Positions 6,264 through 46,041 of a stretch of 64,000 nucleotides of DNA are shown here, piece after piece. The notes beneath the pieces are model-generated. The model saw only the letters and a program-made list of their open reading frames with translations. It was not told the origin of the DNA and made no database searches. Position numbers and translations under genes: made by a program. This DNA is from Nitrosomonas marina. GTDB taxonomy: Bacteria; Pseudomonadota; Gammaproteobacteria; Burkholderiales; Nitrosomonadaceae. How positions within the stretch are numbered: position 1 is the first letter of the stretch; each line of letters opens with the position of its first letter. The stretch is from NCBI RefSeq assembly GCF_900110145.1, contig NZ_FOCP01000018.1, positions 1-64,000 of the forward strand, written 5' to 3'.

Positions 6264-6357
6264 GACGCACCTTTAACGTCCCTTTATTCAGAACCACGCC
6301 AATCGGGTAAGGCTTCCCGACTTTTGCTCCGTCGAGCTAGGCGTAGTCAGACCGTAA

Positions 6358-7563
6358 TCAAGTTTTTGGAAATTTGACAATCTTGGCACCCATCGCCAGA
6401 TCATCCAGATAATTTGACCACCATTGCATCATCTCCCTGCGTTTTGGCAAGTGCTCAGCAAAGTTATATGCTGCTGCAACTTTGTTTCGTTCTACATGGG
6501 CTAATTGTCGTTCTATCACCTGCTCTGGCCATCCGTTTTCATGTAGCAATGTACTGGCTATGCTGCGAAAACCGTGCCCGGTCATTTCGTCTTTTTCATA
6601 CCCCATGCGCCGTAATGCAGCATTAACCGTATTTTCAGACATTGGCCGCGAATTGCTACGTATGCTTGGAAAAATATATTTTCCGGTGCCCGTCAGTGGA
6701 TGTATGGATTGCAGGATTGCAATAGCCTGTTGTGACAACGGAACAATATGCAATTCTTTCATTTTCATTTTTTCTCCGGGTATGCGCCATTCCTGCTTAT
6801 CAAAGTCGATTTCCAACCATTCGGCATGACGCAATTCGCCGGGACGTACAAAAACCAGTGGTGCAAGCTGTAACGCGCACTTGGTAATAAAGGAACCGCT
6901 GAAACCTTGAATTGAACGCAGCAACTCCCCTACTCCTTTGGGATCAGTAATACTGGCATGATGTCTGGATTTAACCGGCGTCAATGCACCCTTCAAATCG
7001 CCGCTGGGATCGCGTTCAGCGCGTCCGGTTGCTACAGCATACCGAAATACCCGACCAGCATATTCGCGGCACCGGTGCGCTTTCTCGTGCGCGCCACGGC
7101 TTTCTACTCTGCGCAATACAGCCAGCAGTTCCGGTGCAGTTATATCGTTGATGGTACGGTTACCCAGCCACGGAAAAATATCTTTTTCCAGATAACGTTT
7201 GATGCTGTGTGCTGTGGAAGCCGCCCAGGTATGGACATTTTTAGCGTGCCATTCAAGTGCTACGGTTTTGAAGGTGTTGTCGGCAGCGTGAAGTGCGTGC
7301 TGCTTTCTTATGGCTTTGATTAGTGAAAGATCGCTATCGTTTGACAGATGCTCTTTCGCTTCATCGCGTTTTTTCCGGGCATTAACCAGCGAAACTTGAG
7401 GGTATACGCCAATGGCCAAGGTTTTCCGTTTTCCAGCATAGCGGTAATCCATACGCCAGTATTTACCGTTGGATTTGACCAGCAAATACAATCCGCCGCT
7501 GTCACCCATTTTGTAGGGCTTGTCTTTCGGTTTAGCCTGACGTACTGCGGTATCTGTGAGCAT
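6358..7563 (-). CDS. P4-type tyrosine integrase (DUF4102 N-terminus)
   Basis: At 401 residues it has the usual length for the family. The DUF4102 arm-binding domain opens with LTDTAVRQAKPKDKPYKMGD and GGLYLLVK. A SAM-like core-binding domain follows at about 100-190, and the catalytic domain shows R (FVRPGELRHAEW), H-x-x-R (GHGFRSIAST), a second H (QLAHVE) and the nucleophile Y (AAAYNFAEH). All catalytic residues are present, so the gene appears functional. Its start lies 165 bp from the tRNA-derived core at 7728, the normal arrangement for islands that integrate at tRNA 3' ends. Confidence 0.93.
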   Translation of the reverse strand: MLTDTAVRQAKPKDKPYKMGDSGGLYLLVKSNGKYWRMDYRYAGKRKTLAIGVYPQVSLVNARKKRDEAKEHLSNDSDLSLIKAIRKQHALHAADNTFKTVALEWHAKNVHTWAASTAHSIKRYLEKDIFPWLGNRTINDITAPELLAVLRRVESRGAHEKAHRCREYAGRVFRYAVATGRAERDPSGDLKGALTPVKSRHHASITDPKGVGELLRSIQGFSGSFITKCALQLAPLVFVRPGELRHAEWLEIDFDKQEWRIPGEKMKMKELHIVPLSQQAIAILQSIHPLTGTGKYIFPSIRSNSRPMSENTVNAALRRMGYEKDEMTGHGFRSIASTLLHENGWPEQVIERQLAHVERNKVAAAYNFAEHLPKRREMMQWWSNYLDDLAMGAKIVKFPKT

Positions 7564-7564
7564 T

Positions 7565-7616
7565 TGACGGTATCTCGCAAGACGATATCAAAAAGTACCG
7601 TCAAAAATACCGTCAT
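7565..7616. repeat. TTGACGGTA direct repeats before the integrase gene
   Basis: Read on the minus strand, TGACGGTA occurs at about 7616-7608 and 7602-7595, and its complement lies at 7565-7572 just before the integrase start codon. The same pattern survives in the remnant at 240-290. Repeats of this kind between core and integrase gene are probably arm-type integrase or AlpA binding sites. Confidence 0.5.
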
Positions 7617-7727
7617 TCTGCTAATATGTCAAAAGATGTTATGCGATTTTATGAGATAATCAGTTTTTAAAAAACCGAATAGATACAAGGAATTTTATGT
7701 GATATGAGACTTTATGAAAGCCTTACT

Positions 7728-7784
7728 TGGTGCCGAGGGGGGGAATCGAACCCCCATGATGTCACCATCGCTGGATTTTGAATC
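7728..7784 (-). repeat. Left attachment core of the prophage (tRNA-Leu 3' fragment)
   Basis: 57 bp match the tRNA-Leu 3' half at 45953-46009, with a single mismatch (G7737 versus A45962). The copy holds the acceptor 3' strand, T arm, variable arm and part of the anticodon stem, then diverges at 7785. In this copy the acceptor stem would be fully Watson-Crick, while the intact tRNA has a G-U pair, so this fragment may preserve the ancestral 3' end. It also closes the island to its left. Confidence 0.92.
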
Positions 7785-7884
7785 TAGGTCATTTTGTTTT
7801 TATATCAATTGTTTATTTCATTTATTGATTCGCAAAAGATTAATTTTTAATCAGCTACAGCCTTTTATTCATACGGACTAATTT

Positions 7885-7900
7885 TTTTTGCGGAGCAAAA
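7885..7900. repeat. Probable integrase arm-type site (left)
   Basis: TTTTTGCGGAGCAAAA here recurs twice near the right attachment site (45882-45896 and 45902-45916). Its occurrence just inside both prophage ends suggests binding sites for the integrase N-terminal domain. Confidence 0.5.
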
Positions 7901-7932
7901 GGGCAAGGCGTGAGGCAGGAGAATGCACCCTG

Positions 7933-8535
7933 CTATCTGGGAGTTGTTTCTGATAAAGACTTGCCGACAATCTTCAGGCACTCGCCTTGATTCTTTTCGA
8001 TGAAATCGACCAGCGTCAAATATTTGTTGACGATCTGCTGAACATCTATTCCGAAGGTCTGAATATCTCGTTGAGTCTCTGCAGATAGTTCGAGTCTTTC
8101 GGTCTCTCTATCATCGACTCCTGAAACTCCACCGGCATGCATTCCTTCTCGACCACAGTTGTCCGGTTTTCTTTTTTTGACAGCGGCGTACATGCGCTTA
8201 TTACCAAGATCAGCAATATCATCAAGCAGCTTTTTATTACGTTCGCGTTCTGCATTGAGCACCTCGTTTAAATGTTGTTTATCAAGTTCCCTGCGATGCT
8301 TTTCTTCCTTCATGCGCTTGGCTACGATCTTTTCTTTTTGCTTCAACAGGTCGCGCTCGGCTTTGACTGCGATTGCTTCTCTGGCTGCGTACCCTTCTCT
8401 GTATGAATCTTTCAGTCGCCCCTGATCCCAGGAATAAACCGACCATAGCAACATCCCAACGACCACAACGCCAATAGCATACGGCGCGGCTTTGAATGCA
8501 AATCTGACCACAATCGACCATGGTATCGGTATCAT
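7933..8535 (-). CDS. Rz: Inner-membrane spanin, Rz-like
   Basis: A 200-residue protein with one N-terminal membrane helix (AAPYAIGVVVVGMLLWSVYSW, residues about 17-37). A long charged coiled coil follows to about residue 115 (ERDLLKQKEKIVAKRMKEEK), then a periplasmic tail. This is the i-spanin layout: it bridges the periplasm with Rz1 and fuses the inner and outer membranes in the last step of lysis. The start overlaps the preceding holin-like gene by 4 bp. A full Rz1 frame is nested inside, which strongly supports the assignment. Confidence 0.85.
   Translation of the reverse strand: MIPIPWSIVVRFAFKAAPYAIGVVVVGMLLWSVYSWDQGRLKDSYREGYAAREAIAVKAERDLLKQKEKIVAKRMKEEKHRRELDKQHLNEVLNAERERNKKLLDDIADLGNKRMYAAVKKRKPDNCGREGMHAGGVSGVDDRETERLELSAETQRDIQTFGIDVQQIVNKYLTLVDFIEKNQGECLKIVGKSLSETTPR
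8046..8255 (-). CDS. Rz1: Outer-membrane spanin lipoprotein, Rz1-like (nested in Rz)
   Basis: The 69-residue frame lies wholly inside Rz in a different reading frame. It has a lipoprotein signal: a hydrophobic stretch LMILLILVIS then lipobox I-S-A-C at residues 19-22. A ribosome site GAGGTG sits 6 bases before the ATG. The mature part is short and includes prolines, as in other o-spanins. Embedded Rz1 genes are well known in lambda-like phages. It would be exported, lipidated on Cys22 and held in the outer membrane, facing Rz. Confidence 0.85.
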   Translation of the reverse strand: MQNANVIKSCLMILLILVISACTPLSKKENRTTVVEKECMPVEFQESMIERPKDSNYLQRLNEIFRPSE

Positions 8536-8777: not shown

Positions 8778-9370
8778 AGCATTTCCTTTATCTTGTTGAC
8801 AGCTTTGCGCTGCGCCTTCCATGCGCCCGAACCATTTGCGTATCCAAGCTTTTCGGCTATGTCGCCATATTCGCGGTCATCGACATGTACCGCCCAGATA
8901 ATCCGCCGGACTCTATCAGGCAGTTGGTCGATAATTTCGAGTAACTGCCTGGCGGCGCATACGTTGACCGGATCGACTCCGTCCGGTATGTCATAGCACT
9001 CGGTTATATCAACATGTTCCGCCAGCTTGTGCGTGCGCTTGCCTATACCGTGAGAGCCAAGCTGACTGCGGGCGTAATCCCTTGCCCGTCCATACATCCG
9101 CATGACCGCGTATTTTTCAAATGTTGCCGGATCACCGCCCTTGCGGTACGCCTCAACCAGCGCAAGCACTGTCTCCTGCCTCAGTTCGTACAGGTCGAGC
9201 CTGTATCCGGTATCCCGGTACACTTCAAACGCAATGCGCCTGGCTGTGTCGATATAATCAAATATGACTCGTTCACCAATGCTTTCTCCTGCCCGTGTGG
9301 TTTGCACGATGCCTGATTGTTTACCTGTCAGTTTTAGCGGGACTGCCAGAAACTGCGCTGAACGAGTCAT
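8774..9370 (-). CDS. Phage sigma-70-like transcription factor
   Basis: 198 residues. A region resembling sigma region 2 spans about 35-100 (FDYIDTARRIAFEVYRDTG, LYELRQETVLALVEAYRK, YAVMRMYGRARDYAR). A region-4-like helix-turn-helix occupies about 145-198 (LPDRVRRIIWAVHVDDREYGDIAEKLG). The RD-YA-R region-2 spacing and the downstream E-Y-G-D-I-A recognition helix resemble small sigma-family proteins. Finding it inside the lysis block is unusual; it may direct the host polymerase to late or lysis promoters. An alternative is a sigma-like DNA-binding regulator without true sigma activity. Confidence 0.6.
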   Translation of the reverse strand: MTRSAQFLAVPLKLTGKQSGIVQTTRAGESIGERVIFDYIDTARRIAFEVYRDTGYRLDLYELRQETVLALVEAYRKGGDPATFEKYAVMRMYGRARDYARSQLGSHGIGKRTHKLAEHVDITECYDIPDGVDPVNVCAARQLLEIIDQLPDRVRRIIWAVHVDDREYGDIAEKLGYANGSGAWKAQRKAVNKIKEML

Positions 9371-32766: not shown

Positions 32767-33246
32767 TCACTTGATCGCTTTCAGTCTTGATTCGCGTTCC
32801 ATCGTTTGATCGTGGATCGACTTGATTCTTGCCTTGATCTGTTCGCGCGTCTCGGACACCTCATCAAACAACCGCATCAGGTCGTCGTATTCGCGCTTGT
32901 CTATGCCTCCGTCTTCAAGTGAAGTGCGTACGCGGGCGGCAAATTTGCCATACCTGGATTCGCGTTCCAGAAACAGGTCAAGCAATTCCATATCTGAAAC
33001 AGCGTCAAGTTTGTGAGATTTGACAAACACCCCGTCTCTCTCAGCCGCATGGAATCGCGCAAAATCATCTGTATCAAGAATCGCAATAAGCCGCTCATAT
33101 TCCTGAACGTATAAATGATGCGTCGCGCAATTAGGATTGAGTTTGCTCTTGAGTGTTGAGTACGGAATACCCATTCTCACAGCCAGCGCCGCAATGCCGC
33201 CCGGGTAACTCAACGCCTTGCTGTGGACATGGTCAAGTATGTTCAT
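32767..33246 (-). CDS. CII-like phage regulator (CP76 type)
   Basis: The start at 33246 follows an excellent GGGAGGAG site and yields 159 residues; a frame to 33369 lacks a site. The N-terminal HTH (GGIAALAVRMGIPYSTLKSKLNP) and the charged helical C-terminus match Phage_CP76/CII family regulators. It probably activates the repressor or integrase path toward lysogeny, as lambda CII does. It lies after two RNA hairpins downstream of cro. Confidence 0.75.
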   Translation of the reverse strand: MNILDHVHSKALSYPGGIAALAVRMGIPYSTLKSKLNPNCATHHLYVQEYERLIAILDTDDFARFHAAERDGVFVKSHKLDAVSDMELLDLFLERESRYGKFAARVRTSLEDGGIDKREYDDLMRLFDEVSETREQIKARIKSIHDQTMERESRLKAIK

Positions 33247-33307
33247 GGTCGCTCCTCCCGAAAAAGACCGTTTCCAAAAAACCCTCCCGCCGCTAGTATT
33301 AAGCTGC

Positions 33308-33392
33308 GCAATGCCCGGCCATGGAGATAGAGCAGAGAAGGACATGGCCGGGCGCTGCAACAACTGCACACTGCCGCGATAACGGACGCGGC
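33308..33392 (-). promoter_or_regulatory. Two tandem RNA hairpins between cro and cII-like genes
   Basis: Stem A: GCCGCG at 33373-33378 pairs with CGCGGC at 33387-33392. Stem B: 11 perfect pairs between 33313-33323 (GCCCGGCCATG) and 33343-33353, extended by three pairs outside and enclosing a 19-nt pyrimidine-rich loop. Neither is followed by a U-run. Tandem stems right after cro recall antitermination RNA such as HK022 put, or a regulated terminator region. Confidence 0.6.
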
Positions 33393-33408
33393 ACCGGGAG
33401 GAACTGAT

Positions 33409-33675
33409 TTATTCGTTTACTGCGTGTTTATTACTATGATCATTTGCGAGTTCAGGCCAGACTTCATGCCAATCATTCGGGCGTATTTCCTTGCGTCCAA
33501 ACGGCTTGTTTGCATCCTGCGTTTTCTTCTCGATGCGTGCCGCAAGGATGATCATCTTGTCATCCGGTATCCGGTTTTTTACTTTCCATTCGGATACAGA
33601 CGAATTGGCAATTTTGAAAAGATTGGCAACCTTGGATACGCCGCCGAACAGTTCAATAATTTCTCTTGCTTCCAC
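33409..33675 (-). CDS. Cro-like repressor
   Basis: An 88-residue HTH protein (IIELFGGVSKVANLFKIANSSVSEWK), read from a GTG start with AGGAG six bases upstream. Its promoter on the minus strand is TTGACA (33725-33720), 17 bp, TAATAT (33702-33697), and an operator covers the spacer. Opposed to the CI-like gene, it should repress at the same operators and commit the phage to lytic growth. Confidence 0.8.
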   Translation of the reverse strand: MEAREIIELFGGVSKVANLFKIANSSVSEWKVKNRIPDDKMIILAARIEKKTQDANKPFGRKEIRPNDWHEVWPELANDHSNKHAVNE

Positions 33676-33696
33676 AAAGTCTCCTGTTTCTTGTCA

Positions 33697-33764
33697 ATAT
33701 TAGGCATTCCTAATTTAATTGTCAATAGGCACTCCTTATGTTTTTAGTATTAGACTTCCCTACT
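33697..33764. promoter_or_regulatory. Switch region: three repressor operators and the cro promoter
   Basis: Operator-like palindromes ATTAGGCATTCCTAAT (33699-33714), AATAGGCACTCCTTAT (33724-33739) and a weaker ATTAGACTTCCCTACT (33749-33764) lie exactly 25 bp apart. The cro promoter (minus strand, -35 at 33725-33720, -10 at 33702-33697) is overlapped by the first two. The third operator abuts the CI-like ATG at 33765, an arrangement suited to CI autoregulation. Confidence 0.8.
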
Positions 33765-34148
33765 ATGGGAACAACTACGCTTGCAGAACGACTAAGGCTT
33801 GCCTTGAACAATAAACCGGGAGCGAAACAAAAAGACCTCGCGGAGTATTGTGGCGTCGCTCAGCCATCCGTTACAGATTGGTTTAATGGGGAAACAAAAA
33901 ACATCATCGGCATAAAGTTAAAACTTGCCGCTGAATTCCTTGGCGTCAACCAAGTGTGGCTAGGTACAGGCAAAGGCGAGATGTACGCGCCTCCAGAATA
34001 CACTGGCGACAAAAAGAGAGACGCACTGATAGATATAATAAAAAACGCGCCCGAGGAATACCTAGGACAGCTTGAACGCAATGTTCATGCGGTCTGTCAA
34101 CCAAAAGTTAAATACGGAAACGATAAAAACGGAAACGAAAAACACTAG
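33765..34148 (+). CDS. CI-like repressor (no peptidase domain)
   Basis: Starting at ATG 33765 gives 127 residues; the upstream ATG 33738 is buried in an operator and has no ribosome site either. The HTH is LAERLRLALNNKP ... KQKDLAEYCGVAQPSVTDWFNG. The C-terminal part is short and charged (KKRDALIDIIKNAPEEYLGQ). There is no S24 LexA-like peptidase, so RecA-driven self-cleavage is not expected and induction must work another way. The lack of an SD suggests a leaderless mRNA, as for lambda cI. Confidence 0.8.
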   Translation: MGTTTLAERLRLALNNKPGAKQKDLAEYCGVAQPSVTDWFNGETKNIIGIKLKLAAEFLGVNQVWLGTGKGEMYAPPEYTGDKKRDALIDIIKNAPEEYLGQLERNVHAVCQPKVKYGNDKNGNEKH

Positions 34149-34222
34149 GGTCCTGGAAATAAATAATTTCTGTCATAAAGATTTATGCAGGTGCAAGGGA
34201 ATAGATAAATAAAACATAATCA

Positions 34223-34855
34223 ATGTATTACTACCTAACAGCATTTATTGCGTTCGCATCGGTGATGATATTGATAAACAGCACGTCTATTGCAAATACC
34301 ATCATCTACACATCAGCCATAGTTGGCTTGATGATCCTGTCAAAATGGCTTTTCCCAAGCCAGCCGCAGAAAAACAAACAGAACCGACCGGCGACGAAAA
34401 CAAAGCCAGCGTCAAACCGAACAGCGCAACAGCAGCAGCCCGCAAAAAACCGGTACACAATACCAGAACAAATACACGAATGGCCGCAGCTAAATGAATT
34501 TGATTTTGATATTGTCGGCGAGTCGTATTATCAGCCGGCCATATCGAGAATATACCAATCATGGGTCAGTAACTACAAAGAAGGCGACATGGTCGACCCG
34601 CTTGACGCCTTCCTGATCCCGGACGACAACAACCCGTATGATGACAAGGCCGTCAGGGTGGATATTGATAACTACACCGTAGGCCACCTAAGCCGCGACG
34701 ATGCTAGAAGTTTCAGGCGGAGGCTTGGAGCCAAGAAACTGACCGGACAGATCACGAAGTGCAAAGCCACCATTACCGGCGGTCATGAGCTGAAGAACGG
34801 CGACACCGCAAGCTACGGCGTCGCGCTGGATATAAAACCGTTTGAATCAATATGA
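34223..34855 (+). CDS. Membrane-anchored HIRAN-domain protein
   Basis: A 210-residue protein. Two hydrophobic helices occupy residues about 1-45 (YLTAFIAFASVMILI, TIIYTSAIVGLMILS). A low-complexity linker (KTKPASNRTAQQQQPAK) follows, then a HIRAN domain at about 90-210 (FDIVGESYYQPAI, VGHLSRDDARSFRR). HIRAN binds 3' DNA ends or stalled forks in helicase proteins; here it is alone and tied to the membrane. It may sense or block incoming DNA, fitting immunity functions near the repressor. Confidence 0.7.
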   Translation: MYYYLTAFIAFASVMILINSTSIANTIIYTSAIVGLMILSKWLFPSQPQKNKQNRPATKTKPASNRTAQQQQPAKNRYTIPEQIHEWPQLNEFDFDIVGESYYQPAISRIYQSWVSNYKEGDMVDPLDAFLIPDDNNPYDDKAVRVDIDNYTVGHLSRDDARSFRRRLGAKKLTGQITKCKATITGGHELKNGDTASYGVALDIKPFESI

Positions 34856-34932
34856 AAATCGAAGATCCAAAGAAAACAAAAAAACGCTGGCCGTCAGACC
34901 AAGAAAAGAGAAAACCGAAAGACGCCCGGTAA
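34852..34932 (+). CDS. Short basic peptide (26 aa)
   Basis: An ATGA overlap with the HIRAN gene starts a 26-residue lysine-rich peptide (KKTKKRWPSDQEKRKPK). The stop codon is directly adjacent to the opposing gene's stop. It could be translated by coupling, but so short a frame may be chance. Confidence 0.3.
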   Translation: MKIEDPKKTKKRWPSDQEKRKPKDAR

Positions 34933-35436
34933 TCACCAGATCAGCCGGAAAGCAGCCGCGCCTATCCCGAAAACGACCGGTGTCGCGGTTGCCATGATAC
35001 TTACTATATTGAGCCACTTTCCCTTGATGTTGGCGCAATCCCTGTTCGACTCGATGCAGCGCTGTTTGCTTTCCAGTATCTCTTTTTTTAATACCAGGCA
35101 ATTCATCATCGCCGTTTTTGAGTTATACAAATTTTTTGGGTCATTTGTCGGCGGAGCTATATCAGAAGCCTGCATGCACTTCAAAACCAGAACGCAGGCA
35201 ATGGCGAACAGATAAACAGAAGAGGCCAGCATCCCGCCCTGCAACCACAAAGGCGCGCCATCATTTCTGATCGAAACAAACAGGGCAAGCGCGCCGCCAG
35301 CGCCGGTCAGCAGTAATATCAGCAGATTGTTTGCAGCTCTTTCCAGTGAATTGATGCACTCTATCTGGAAATCTGCATTCGCCTGCGCTTCAGAGTCGGT
35401 ATAGTCAAACAACCATTTCATTTCCCACGGCCACAT
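34933..35436 (-). CDS. Polytopic membrane protein, lysogeny-region
   Basis: The start at 35436 has AGGAGG before it and gives 167 residues; a frame to 35556 does not. Three hydrophobic segments can be seen (NNLLILLLTGAGGALALFVS, LASSVYLFAIACVLVLK, VSIMATATPVVFGIGAAAF). A long charged loop lies between (VLKKEILESKQRCIESNRD). It is co-oriented with the 86-residue gene and opposite to the early operon. The location between repressor and early promoter suits superinfection exclusion, but the family is unknown. Confidence 0.55.
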   Translation of the reverse strand: MWPWEMKWLFDYTDSEAQANADFQIECINSLERAANNLLILLLTGAGGALALFVSIRNDGAPLWLQGGMLASSVYLFAIACVLVLKCMQASDIAPPTNDPKNLYNSKTAMMNCLVLKKEILESKQRCIESNRDCANIKGKWLNIVSIMATATPVVFGIGAAAFRLIW

Positions 35437-35488
35437 AAAAACCTCCTTATCAAACGAGCTGTCAAGGAATCCTTGACAGCTATCAAAA

Positions 35489-35749
35489 TCACCCCAGCAT
35501 ATACCCGCAAACCATCCCTGCGATGAATAGCGCGCCCATACCAATCCAAGCCACATGCGGCTGAATGCCTCTGCGCCATGAACCTTTCGTTACGCCGTCC
35601 AGAATATCCCGGCGCTGAGATTCAAGCAATTCTATGATTCTTTCGTTCAAATCTCTTTGGCTATCACTTACCCGCCTTAGAGACCTTTTTGTTTCGTCAA
35701 ATACTTCGTTGATTTGATCAACATCTATCGCTTCATCCTTACCTGCCAT
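35489..35749 (-). CDS. Tail-anchored coiled-coil membrane protein
   Basis: Start at 35749 (GGGAGG upstream) gives 86 residues: a helical coiled-coil region (DQINEVFDETKRSLRRVSDS, RDLNERIIELLESQRRDIL) and a C-terminal membrane helix (VAWIGMGALFIAGMVCGYML). It precedes the membrane protein at 34933-35436 and probably shares its transcript. Together they look like a two-part membrane device of the prophage. Confidence 0.55.
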   Translation of the reverse strand: MAGKDEAIDVDQINEVFDETKRSLRRVSDSQRDLNERIIELLESQRRDILDGVTKGSWRRGIQPHVAWIGMGALFIAGMVCGYMLG

Positions 35750-35811
35750 AACACCTCCCAATAAAAAATTAATCAATCCGCTAATCACGGAATGAAAATT
35801 TTATCATAAAA

Positions 35812-35854
35812 ATTAGGAATACCTATTGACATGTTAATTAGGAATGCCTAACAT
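35812..35854 (+). promoter_or_regulatory. Early rightward promoter with two operators
   Basis: TTGACA (35826-35831), 17 bp, TAACAT (35849-35854). Palindromes ATTAGGAATACCTATT (35812-35827) and ATTAGGAATGCCTAAC (35837-35852) lie 25 bp apart, the second occupying the spacer. The same arrangement is seen at the cro promoter, so CI-like and Cro-like proteins should control both. Confidence 0.85.
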
Positions 35855-35901
35855 ACCTCAAAACAACGCAACAAAACACAAAACGAAACAGTGGAGGAAA
35901 C

Positions 35902-36477
35902 ATGACAACCGTAATTTATGACTGTGACGCGGGCGACCTAAGCCCGCAAAGCATAACCAGACTGGCGAACATGTATCACGAATCAGAAGCCACCACAGAG
36001 TGGCAACCGGGCGAAGATTTGTCGGAAAAACTGGTTATCACCCCGATCAGCAAAGAGATTGCAGACCAGCTCGACATCGCCGAGGAAGACCTGATCCACA
36101 TCGACGAAGCCATGGAACTACTGCAAAGCGATGTATCCATGAGCGATGTAATAACCCATGGCAACGAAGCATTCGCCAGAGATGACCCAATCACGTTGCA
36201 GCAATGCCTGATGCTGGCGAAATTAACCATTGACCACTCGCTATCAAGCGAATCGATACCGCAGCACGAAAAGTCAGGTTTGCGCGTTATCTCGGCGGTA
36301 ATAAAAGCAACAAATGAATTTGCAAAAGAAATTGAGACAGCCGTACCGGATGATCACAGGATTTTTTGCGCAAGAAAACTGATTATCTTGAAAGATGAAA
36401 TTCTCAAGATAAGTGTAGATACAGCTCTCGGCAAATTCCACGACCAGCGCAGCCAGCAGGAGGAACCAACGACATGA
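35902..36477 (+). CDS. Early phage protein, unknown
   Basis: First gene of the early operon; GGAGG lies before the ATG and transcription should begin near 35861. The 191-residue protein is acidic and largely helical (ITPISKEIADQLDIAEEDLI, AMELLQSDVSMSDVITHGNE). No domain recognised. As a first early gene it may modify host metabolism or restriction. Confidence 0.5.
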   Translation: MTTVIYDCDAGDLSPQSITRLANMYHESEATTEWQPGEDLSEKLVITPISKEIADQLDIAEEDLIHIDEAMELLQSDVSMSDVITHGNEAFARDDPITLQQCLMLAKLTIDHSLSSESIPQHEKSGLRVISAVIKATNEFAKEIETAVPDDHRIFCARKLIILKDEILKISVDTALGKFHDQRSQQEEPTT

Positions 36478-36683
36478 CCGCCAGACCGCTCGACTACTAC
36501 ACCAAAGGATCAACAGGACTACTGACCATGAACAGCAAAAAACACTCAACACTATATCCACAAATATACGTTGAAAAATTGCGCCGCAAATACATGATTG
36601 CGAAAGTCGCTCTTGCAATCGAATCAATTGCGCTGCTCATCATGGTTTTGTCCGGACTGACATTCATCTACCGGGTATTTTAA
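36474..36683 (+). CDS. Small membrane protein
   Basis: 69 residues with one C-terminal hydrophobic helix (ALAIESIALLIMVLSGLTFI). It starts in an ATGA overlap with the previous stop, and GGAGG precedes it. An internal start (residue 17) is possible. Role unknown. Confidence 0.5.
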   Translation: MTARPLDYYTKGSTGLLTMNSKKHSTLYPQIYVEKLRRKYMIAKVALAIESIALLIMVLSGLTFIYRVF

Positions 36684-36685
36684 TC

Positions 36686-37237
36686 ATGAAACTAATCGGA
36701 CTTACCGGCCCGGCAGGATGCGGAAAAACAACAGTAGCCGACTACCTGCACGATAAACACGGCTTCTATCACCTGTCCTTTGCCATGCCGATCAAAGAAG
36801 CACTGGCCGCAATGCTGGGCGTGTCAATCGACCGGCTGGAAAACCGGCAATACAAAGATACCCCATTAATCGGTATCGGCAAATCACCTAGACAGCTCAT
36901 GCAAACGCTGGGCACTGAATGGGGACGTGAAATTGTGAATCCCGACCTGTGGGGAATGCTGCTGCAGCGCAAAATCGATTTCAACATGCAACTCGCGCCT
37001 CAGCAGTCAATCGTCATTAGCGACGTGCGGTTCGAAAACGAAGCCAGACGCATCAGATCTCAAGGCGGCGAGATATGGCACATCACCCGTCCGAGCAACC
37101 CGCACAAGGTCAGCAAGCACAAAAGCGAAAACCTGATCGAGCCACTGCCAGACGAAACCCTAATCATGAACACAGCAAGCATAGACGAACTGAAAAACGC
37201 AGTCGACGCGCTGCTGATCGAGGAGGAAACGGCATGA
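36686..37237 (+). CDS. Deoxynucleoside monophosphate kinase (T4 gp1-like)
   Basis: A 183-residue P-loop kinase with GLTGPAGCGKTTVADYL (Walker A near residues 6-15), the LID/NMP-binding regions (LSFAMPIKEALAAMLG, GREIVNPDLW) and a DVRF motif (VISDVRFENEARR). It phosphorylates dNMPs and supports phage DNA synthesis. Spacing to neighbours is minimal, so it is translated within the operon. Confidence 0.85.
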   Translation: MKLIGLTGPAGCGKTTVADYLHDKHGFYHLSFAMPIKEALAAMLGVSIDRLENRQYKDTPLIGIGKSPRQLMQTLGTEWGREIVNPDLWGMLLQRKIDFNMQLAPQQSIVISDVRFENEARRIRSQGGEIWHITRPSNPHKVSKHKSENLIEPLPDETLIMNTASIDELKNAVDALLIEEETA

Positions 37238-37470
37238 AAAACACCGATATGCGCCACTACAAAACCCGCAAGCTGGACGCGCAAACGATCATCGCCGCAC
37301 TGGCAATCATCGGCATGATTGCAGTCACCTGGAGCGATCACACCAACCGCAGCGAGATCGCCAGAGCAGCACAGCAGGAGATCGTAGAGCGCGATCTGTG
37401 CATCGAGCAGCTTGAATACACCATCCTGCAAATTTTTCATCAACCAACCCACGGAGACATTGAACTATGA
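37234..37470 (+). CDS. Small membrane protein
   Basis: The ATG at 37234 follows GAGGAGG and overlaps the kinase stop, giving 78 residues. One membrane helix (TIIAALAIIGMIAVTW) is flanked by a charged start and a helical tail. Not assigned. Confidence 0.5.
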   Translation: MKNTDMRHYKTRKLDAQTIIAALAIIGMIAVTWSDHTNRSEIARAAQQEIVERDLCIEQLEYTILQIFHQPTHGDIEL

Positions 37471-37808
37471 ATCAGTCAGTAATCACAACGCTGCGCCAGA
37501 TCGGCAATGGCAGTCTGGTGACCAGCGTAGAAAACAAACTGCAAACACTCGTGCAGGCAGTAGAAGAGACCGGAAAATCTGGCAAATTGGTCGTCACCAT
37601 CAACGTAGCCAAGGCAACCAAGGGCAACGCGATGACCATCAAGGGCGCGGCCAAATTGAGCGCGCCTGATACCGAGCACCATGAAACGCTCATGTTCGCT
37701 ACCGAAGACGGCGGCTTGAGTACCGAGAACCCCAAACAGCAGAAACTCGATCTGAACGTGATCAAGGCTGAAAAGGGTGAAATCAAAAACGTAAACGAGG
37801 CCAAATAA
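37467..37808 (+). CDS. Hypothetical early phage protein
   Basis: A 113-residue protein. The sequence SVITTLRQIGNGSLVTSVENKLQ is followed by a beta part (KLVVTINVAKATKGNAMTIKG) and an acidic-basic end. No recognised domain. It lies immediately before DUF2303, whose genes often travel with such small partners, and may assist single-strand DNA or recombination work. Confidence 0.5.
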   Translation: MNQSVITTLRQIGNGSLVTSVENKLQTLVQAVEETGKSGKLVVTINVAKATKGNAMTIKGAAKLSAPDTEHHETLMFATEDGGLSTENPKQQKLDLNVIKAEKGEIKNVNEAK

Positions 37809-44854: not shown

Positions 44855-45880
44855 ATGGGCAGGAAACCAAGCGTTAATTTTAATTTGCCGCCACATCTTC
44901 GCGCCAGAAAAAGCAGTAGCGGAAAGATTTACTACTATTTCGACACTGGCGGCAAGCCACGCAAAGAAATACCTCTTGGAAGTGACTATGCTCTGGCCGT
45001 AAAGAAATGGTCTGAGTTAAAAGTAAATGTAACCCCGCAGCACCCGAAAATTATTACATTCCGATATGTAGCAGAGCGCTATATAAAAGAAGTTATTCCC
45101 ACAAAAGCACCAGCAACACAAAAAGGCAACATGCTGGAACTGTCACACCTGTTCAAATTCTTTGACAACCCCCCTGCTCCACTTGAAAAAATAGAACCGA
45201 TACACATAAGGCAGTACCTTGATTGGCGTAACGTTCTGCATGCGAATCGCGAAAAGGCTCTATTCAGTCATATCTGGAACAAGGCCCGTGAATGGGGATA
45301 CACCAACAGGGAAAACCCATGCGCAGGAATAAAGGGGTTCAAAGAGACTGGCCGCAAGAGCATCTATATAGATGACAAAACATTTTCAGCAGTATATCAA
45401 TCCGCAAGCATACCGCTCAAAGATGCAATGGATCTCGCGTACTTAACCGGACAACGACCATCCGATGTTTTAAAAATGAGAGAAACAGATATTACTGACG
45501 GATGTATTGAAATAAAACAGAACAAAACAGGAAAAAAACTCAGGATCAGAATTAAAGGCGAGCTGCACCTGCTCATACAGAGAATACTGGCCCGCAAGTC
45601 AACCTACAAAATCAGGTGCTTCTCGTTGATCATAGACGAGACCGGCCAGCCTATGACGCTAAGAACGCTACAAGGACACTTTTACCGCGCCAGAAAAGCC
45701 GCTGGAATAGAGAATAACGAATTTCAACTAAGAGACCTGCGCAGCAAGGCCGGAACCGACAAAACAGAAAAAAGCGGTGACATAAGACAAGCGCAAAAGC
45801 TGCTTGGGCATACGACAATCAGCATGACCGAGCACTACGTCAGGAACAGAAAAGGTGATATCGTCGAGCCAACAAAATAA
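44855..45880 (+). CDS. int: Prophage tyrosine integrase
   Basis: 341 residues. Arm-binding start (RKPSVNFNLPPHLRARKSSSG), SAM-like core domain (about 70-165), and catalytic R (YLTGQRPSDVLKMRE), Lys in the hairpin, R (FQLRDLRSKAGTDK), His (LLGHTT) and Tyr (MTEHYVRNRKG). The usual H-x-x-R is R-D-L-R here, a variant seen in this subfamily. The stop is 73 bp from the tRNA core it cuts. Expression of integrase on the early strand fits induction-time excision. Confidence 0.9.
   Translation: MGRKPSVNFNLPPHLRARKSSSGKIYYYFDTGGKPRKEIPLGSDYALAVKKWSELKVNVTPQHPKIITFRYVAERYIKEVIPTKAPATQKGNMLELSHLFKFFDNPPAPLEKIEPIHIRQYLDWRNVLHANREKALFSHIWNKAREWGYTNRENPCAGIKGFKETGRKSIYIDDKTFSAVYQSASIPLKDAMDLAYLTGQRPSDVLKMRETDITDGCIEIKQNKTGKKLRIRIKGELHLLIQRILARKSTYKIRCFSLIIDETGQPMTLRTLQGHFYRARKAAGIENNEFQLRDLRSKAGTDKTEKSGDIRQAQKLLGHTTISMTEHYVRNRKGDIVEPTK

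Positions 45881-45952: not shown

Positions 45953-46041
<89 letters not shown>

Follow-up and report, generated by a model that had tools for sequence, protein, structure and literature searches.

RexAB of phage lambda and RexABpp of Pseudomonas putida each combine a DNA-binding protein with a membrane protein and are encoded behind the CI repressor (PMC11077077, PMC12894663). RexA is described there as a soluble, RdgC-related protein and RexB as a separate four-helix membrane protein; exclusion has been shown for Rex. The Hex protein of phage 434 is reported to be made from the repressor mRNA and to block RecA-driven cleavage of the repressor (PMC3564112). HIRAN domains of the HLTF type are described as binding DNA ends, and phage ends have been proposed as targets of the HIRAN domains linked to Hip proteins (PMC8262856). 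Another report calls the stand-alone HIRAN domains of prokaryotes uncharacterised (PMC11090510).

The locus analysed here belongs to a prophage of Nitrosomonas marina, within a stretch of 64,000 nucleotides (the window) on contig C58; the genome measures 3.5 Mb. Directly behind its CI-like repressor gene and on the same strand, the position of lambda rexA, lies the gene for a 210-residue protein, tmHIRAN, with an N-terminal membrane anchor, a basic linker and a C-terminal HIRAN domain. The likeness to RexAB consists of genes behind CI, a pairing of DNA-binding and membrane functions, and predicted expression in lysogeny; tmHIRAN differs in carrying the HIRAN domain and the anchor in one protein, and exclusion, demonstrated for Rex, is proposed here for tmHIRAN. 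With Hex it shares the predicted place of a second gene on the lysogen's repressor transcript. However, Hex acts on a RecA-cleavable repressor, the CI of the window has no peptidase match, and the two are likened by description, not by sequence. HLTF and Rad5 resemble tmHIRAN in sequence profile, fold match and an NPYD core, but tmHIRAN lacks a helicase and is anchored to the membrane. The Hip kinases or antitoxins HipL and HipN contain a bacterial HIRAN domain proposed to sense phage DNA ends; tmHIRAN, in contrast, has no match to a Hip kinase or HipS-like domain in Pfam, and no anchor is mentioned for HipL/HipN in the available part of that paper (PMC8262856). Stenotrophomonas phage DLP4 also has a HIRAN gene, whose product differs in having 102 residues and in being listed with replication and repair genes; its authors identified no repressor in DLP4 (PMC6469090). 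Among the literature matches listed, from a scope outside which most subscription journals and bioRxiv preprints fell, we found no membrane HIRAN and no HIRAN in a repressor operon. The recurrent repressor-HIRAN pattern described below is thus not met in the literature searched.

Immunity region and tmHIRAN

The prophage spans ~38 kb between two copies of a 47-bp direct repeat. Its leftward run comprises a Cro-like gene, a CII-like gene and VapE-type replication genes, and its rightward run begins with the CI-like gene, followed 74 nt on by the HIRAN gene. The features concerned are:

32767–33246, minus strand: CII-like regulator gene (Phage_CP76, E 1.4e-18)
33409–33675, minus strand: Cro-like gene (P22_Cro, E 1.9e-8)
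33697–33725, minus strand: candidate cro promoter, TTGACA-17-TAATAT
33699, 33724 and 33749 (within 33699–33764), no strand: putative operators between cro and cI, 25 bp apart, with 0, 3 and 3 mismatches to ATTAGGnATnCCTAAT
33765–34148, plus strand: CI-like repressor gene with a helix-turn-helix (HTH_3, E 7.9e-6; PHROG phrog_4, transcriptional repressor, E 3.6e-15)
34223–34855, plus strand: tmHIRAN gene (PF08797 above cut-off, PDB profile match, fold matches of the model)
35812 and 35837 (within 35812–35852), no strand: putative operators in the divergent early promoter region, 25 bp apart, with 1 mismatch each to ATTAGGnATnCCTAAT
35826–35854, plus strand: candidate rightward early promoter, TTGACA-17-TAACAT
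44855–45880, plus strand: integrase gene (Phage_integrase, E 2.4e-24)
45963–46009, no strand: attachment-site repeat inside tRNA-Leu, integrase gene adjacent (other copy at 7738–7784)

The open reading frame of the CI-like gene opens at 33738; the start at 33765, directly downstream of the putative operators, is preferred. Pfam gave no S24 peptidase match for this CI up to E 1. The promoter and terminator scans as a whole did not exceed chance (5 against 4.4 and 4 against 3.8, respectively). With up to 3 mismatches, the palindrome ATTAGGnATnCCTAAT occurs at 7 sites in the whole window, where 2.43 are expected. As 7 were also reached in 2 of 100 shuffles, the case for operators rests on clustering and spacing. 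Within 33600–35950 the five listed sites are the only ones at up to 4 mismatches, out of 26 across the window. In the related prophage at locus L075, a different palindrome, AATACCTATGGGTATT, lies at 7457, 7482, 10961 and 10986, 25 bp apart at both ends, and these four are the only sites of that locus with up to 3 mismatches. By their anatomy, we regard the palindromes as putative operators. The same operator spacing was judged by eye to be present in locus L054; in the window, L075 and L054, the 25-bp spacing of the putative operator pairs is kept at both ends of the immunity region while the palindrome varies among prophages.

The identification of the HIRAN gene at 34223–34855, part of the original prediction, was borne out. 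PF08797 matches tmHIRAN with E 5.8e-7 and 29.7 bits, compared to a cut-off of 24.7, and a PDB search with a profile of a 19-sequence family finds the HIRAN domain of human HLTF (E 9e-7), the match covering a core of 35 residues. In the NPYD core, N137 and D140 do not vary among the 19 sequences. The AlphaFold model has a mean pLDDT of 87; with it, Foldseek ranks HLTF HIRAN top at E 3.2e-4, with TM-scores of only ~0.25–0.42, and VIA-align gives Z-scores of 8.0 for 3k2y and 6.8 for 5bnh, which are middling by the scale of the tool. tmHIRAN is thus a HIRAN domain protein by Pfam and PDB profile, with moderate agreement of the predicted fold, given the modest TM-scores and middling Z-scores. It has no recognisable effector or nuclease domain, the NCBIfam search was without meaningful match, and PADLOC matched neither tmHIRAN nor the two proteins encoded opposite to it. 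A RexA (RdgC-like) fold was rejected for tmHIRAN, its model matching HIRAN structures and not RexA.

Transmembrane segments were called with a Kyte-Doolittle script. The hydrophobic anchor of tmHIRAN had been described as two N-terminal helices. The anchor itself stands, with two overlapping hydrophobic stretches (5–23 and 21–39), but the number of helices is uncertain, since the model has a single continuous helix (2–43) and most aligned relatives show a single stretch. A net positive flank follows the anchor in 13 of the 15 anchored sequences. By the positive-inside rule, a positive flank marks the cytoplasmic side, which would place the HIRAN domain in the cytoplasm.

Between CI and tmHIRAN, no promoter or terminator candidate was found on the plus strand. 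From this operon position, tmHIRAN is likely transcribed together with CI in the lysogen. For a RexB-like partner, no further plus-strand gene of note lies between 34855 and 35902.

HIRAN genes beside exchanged repressors

Across related prophages the HIRAN gene is kept and the repressor varies. Compared with L075, the HIRAN protein of the window is 62.5% identical over 208 residues, while the CI proteins have no similarity (E 2.0) and the putative operators differ. The HIRAN proteins of L077 and L079 are 92% identical, and their repressors have no significant similarity (E 0.066). In L039 and L076 the HIRAN identity is 95%, and the repressors are 22% identical (E 2e-8), a remaining similarity that makes exchange less clear than in the other two pairs. 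At the DNA level, the matching blocks of L039 and L076 cover CII and HIRAN, and the stretch 6336–7232, with the repressor, gives no match. A 214-residue gene without Pfam match (L076:7215–7859) lies between repressor and HIRAN in L076 and is absent in L039.

The HIRAN gene is under purifying selection, with dN/dS between 0.05 and 0.07: the two pairs gave 0.071 and 0.054, and cII of the second pair 0.043 (the window-L075 comparison was left out, its dS being saturated). The chromosomal HIRAN pair L041-L042 has a dN/dS of 0.18. One might suppose that the gene does nothing important in the lysogen and is mainly an anchor for recombination, or a passenger, flanking immunity cassettes that are exchanged; the homologous DNA block of L077 and L079 (7890–8398) indeed holds little beyond the HIRAN gene itself (7911–8396). 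The dN/dS values, which are near that of cII, and the recurrence behind several repressor families argue against this explanation, which we consider quite improbable. A gene that is kept while its repressor is exchanged is not expected to be the partner of one repressor, and a lysogeny function independent of the repressor would fit. The pattern thus points to such a function for HIRAN.

HIRAN relatives are widespread in the family. At E 0.001 they were detected in 53 of 125 family genomes, the own genome included, and a class-wide profile search recovered HIRAN in 17 of 369 genomes, again including the own one. In the four strongest hits outside the genus (L105–L108; 2–3.4 kb read each), no repressor was recognised beside HIRAN. 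Some translated relatives have no N-terminal hydrophobic stretch, but a large share do, and membrane-anchored HIRAN is therefore not unusual in this family, contrary to what had been supposed. Several chromosomal relatives, e.g. L040 and L044–L047, have no recognisable phage genes adjacent. A chromosomal subfamily of the genus Nitrosomonas (L048–L052 and L055–L058) has a glutathione peroxidase neighbour in all nine loci read, which suggests an oxidative-stress role for this peroxidase-adjoining membrane HIRAN.

Viral relatives were collected from IMG/VR. The 29 contigs were reduced to 27 by removal of L074, the window's own record, and of one of L078/L079, which are identical over 11,796 bases. 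An N-terminal hydrophobic anchor is present in 12 of the 27 and absent from 15. HIRAN is first or second behind a repressor-type gene in 15/27 contigs. The 27 are not independent, as L086/L096 and L099/L102 each have one HIRAN in common over the stretch read. It is first behind a same-strand repressor in 12 (L075, L077, L081, L083, L084, L085, L090, L092, L093, L094, L095 and L097) and second in three (L076, L078/L079 and L080). Repressor linkage is found for 10/12 anchored and 5/15 soluble HIRANs (Fisher p 0.019, kinship ignored). Two loci outside this count have the same arrangement, with HIRAN first in L039 (N. oligotropha) and second in L066 (Methylophilaceae). The repressors upstream of HIRAN belong to several families. 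Most soluble HIRANs come after a repressor that has a CI/UmuD-like C-terminal domain, and most anchored ones after a short repressor that lacks it; L084 among the anchored and L097 among the soluble are exceptions, and lineage alone could explain the trend (L084 and L092–L095 versus the other CI-HIRAN loci).

In the remaining 12 contigs (L082, L086, L087, L088, L089, L091, L096, L098 and L099–L102), HIRAN is not first or second behind a repressor. The repressor-type gene of L082 shares the strand of HIRAN but lies downstream of it. In L086, HIRAN lies at the contig end, where the upstream gene is not assessable, and the contig was counted among the 12. An unrelated gene (phrog_1250) is upstream of HIRAN in L088 and an integrase in L091. 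The repressor-type gene of L098 (phrog_4, E 5.3e-26) is adjacent to HIRAN but convergent. For L087, L089, L096 and L099–L102, the absence of linkage was judged by eye. These 12 contigs would fit a HIRAN that serves the phage's own replication or recombination, its place behind CI being incidental, and so would the stand-alone HIRAN of DLP4, which its authors grouped with replication and repair genes (PMC6469090). In the window, however, the HIRAN gene shares strand and transcript side with the repressor and is set apart from the replication genes, and its place is the same in 15 of the 27 contigs; we consider this explanation unlikely.

Among named phages, no DNA matched window positions 33000–37500. 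The tmHIRAN query retrieved two records, Nostoc phage Nsp-JY10 (E 2e-9) and an unannotated one (E 4e-6), and the other HIRAN queries only the former. In Nostoc phage Nsp-JY10 (L103), a repressor-type gene (phrog_4, E 4.2e-20) adjoins HIRAN convergently, which together with L098 makes a second kind of neighbourhood.

The related prophage L054 has no HIRAN. A staphylococcal-nuclease-type gene with a hydrophobic N-terminus (SNase, E 8.1e-18) follows its CI, then a gene with a weak DUF6414 match, and a three-helix membrane gene is convergent to them (6574–6990, 7449–8276 and 8804–9328). The slot behind CI thus seems to hold different accessory genes in L054 and in the HIRAN prophages.

Proposed function of tmHIRAN

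The original prediction envisaged superinfection exclusion or a block to DNA entry by three genes acting jointly. An exclusion-type lysogeny function fits tmHIRAN best by its anatomy; the joint action is not supported. Our preferred reading, put forward tentatively, is that tmHIRAN carries out a Rex-like exclusion of incoming phage DNA. The unit would be the CI-tmHIRAN repressor operon rather than the three genes together. Produced from the repressor transcript in the lysogen, tmHIRAN would have its N-terminus in the inner membrane and its HIRAN domain on the cytoplasmic side, and would act whichever repressor the phage carries, most likely doing with one gene what lambda RexAB does with two. 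The HIRAN domain may grip free phage DNA ends at entry or during replication near the membrane, and capture of these ends would stop or abort the infection by that phage. Exclusion is our first choice because HIRAN domains bind DNA ends, phage ends have been proposed as targets of Hip-linked HIRANs, and Rex consists of a DNA-binding and a membrane protein.

Several observations count against exclusion. Five of the 15 repressor-linked HIRANs are soluble, so that the pattern does not require the membrane, and the chromosomal relatives beside glutathione peroxidase genes point to damage rather than phages. The absence of a PADLOC match and of a recognised effector or nuclease domain in tmHIRAN also speaks against it. 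The main rival, which owes its standing to these peroxidase-linked relatives and the soluble variants, is that tmHIRAN is a DNA-damage factor of the lysogen that binds broken or single-stranded ends of host or prophage DNA and tunes induction or survival of damage, in a place like that of Hex. HIRAN is treated as a damage-linked domain in one report (PMC8262856), Hex provides a precedent (PMC3564112), and all nine loci read of the chromosomal subfamily have the peroxidase neighbour. Against this rival, the CI of the window lacks an S24 peptidase match and would thus need no protection from cleavage, and HIRAN stays when the repressor is replaced. We judge such a damage role to be somewhat unlikely, albeit a serious contender.

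If tmHIRAN does exclude phages, a further step, possible but doubtful in our view, would be to regard CI-tmHIRAN as an undescribed class of prophage exclusion module: a sensor of phage DNA ends on the cytoplasmic face of the membrane, expressed with the repressor, constant amid the exchange of immunity cassettes and guarding against heteroimmune relatives. Some lysogens would then turn a sensor of DNA ends, tethered to the membrane, against other phages, and further exclusion genes expressed in lysogeny could be sought among genes that stay constant next to swapped repressors. One group of stand-alone HIRANs now has a defined genetic place and a pattern of constraint.

The opposing gene pair

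Two genes of the opposite strand follow tmHIRAN:

34933–35436, minus strand: gene for a 167-residue protein with three hydrophobic stretches (relatives at L053/L073 and L014), not part of the HIRAN unit
35489–35749, minus strand: gene for an 86-residue, coiled-coil-like protein with a C-terminal hydrophobic anchor, starting behind GGGAGGTG, 52 nt upstream of the 167-residue gene, not part of the HIRAN unit
35803–35832, minus strand: candidate promoter of the pair, ATGTCA-18-TATGAT, with the putative operator 35812–35827 inside its spacer

The start of the 167-residue protein was shifted from the mechanical 35556 to the ATG behind AAGGAGG (35436), so that both starts, 35749 and 35436, are preceded by a strong ribosome site. 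The two-gene set exists as first described, the repressor and the candidate rightward early promoter enclose all three genes, and all three proteins are predicted by hydropathy to be in the membrane.

The promoter/operator layout of L075 and L054 is similar to that of the window pair. However, the TGTCAA common to these loci also belongs to the opposite promoter, as its −35 box, and the A+T-rich upstream element of the rightward promoter could account for part of the conservation. With a promoter scan not above chance, the promoter of the pair thus stays a candidate. It is the only one for the pair and holds a putative operator in its spacer, so the pair is probably repressed: if the candidate is real, the two genes would probably be silent in the lysogen while CI is bound. 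The expectation that the genes of this region are active in lysogeny thus likely applies to HIRAN, behind CI on the same strand, and probably not to the pair.

The pair is rare and is not conserved with HIRAN as a pair. Relatives of the 167-residue protein were found in 2 of the 124 other family genomes and in 1 of the 273 other class genomes searched, and the 86-residue protein had no match among the same 124, 52 of which have a HIRAN relative. Neither protein matched named phages, nor the 167-residue one plasmids. The last 24 residues of the 86-residue protein match a protein encoded in the same place in L075 (10621–10896), with 12/24 identical. In L083, a convergent gene of similar length behind HIRAN encodes a weak three-helix relative of the 167-residue protein (hhalign E 2.4e-4, probability 43%). 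Among the CI-HIRAN loci, L075 thus has only the tail-anchored relative and L083 only the three-helix one. A single membrane complex of tmHIRAN and the pair, active in lysogeny and excluding phages, would accord with the predicted membrane location of all three proteins in one place, with the convergent gene of L083, and with the weak resemblance of a relative of the 167-residue protein to PycTM defence effectors. The opposite strands, the putative operator in the candidate promoter and the separate distribution make this complex very improbable, and the idea of a single three-protein system is abandoned as the leading reading.

The 167-residue protein was modelled from 3 sequences with a mean pLDDT of 70, and no fold was assigned to it, the best Foldseek hits having E 0.41 (PDB) and 0.38 (BFVD). 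Its membership of PycTM was rejected, as it has no PF18967 match (0/11 genomes) and no nucleotide cyclase was found among the 9 neighbouring window proteins scanned. The likeness to PycTM effectors is confined to its relative L053:8415–8888, which matches weakly in Pfam (E 9.3e-4, 20.0 bits compared to a cut-off of 27.2) and in PADLOC (E 1.9e-5). In a Nitrosospira-family prophage, this relative (= L073:3250–3723) is the neighbour of the integrase gene.

Between the genes of the 86- and 167-residue proteins, positions 35460–35478 form a near-perfect palindrome, TGTCAAGGAATCCTTGACA, with a single occurrence in the window when up to 3 mismatches are allowed (one place, read on both strands). It has no T-run and may be a further operator or an RNA hairpin.
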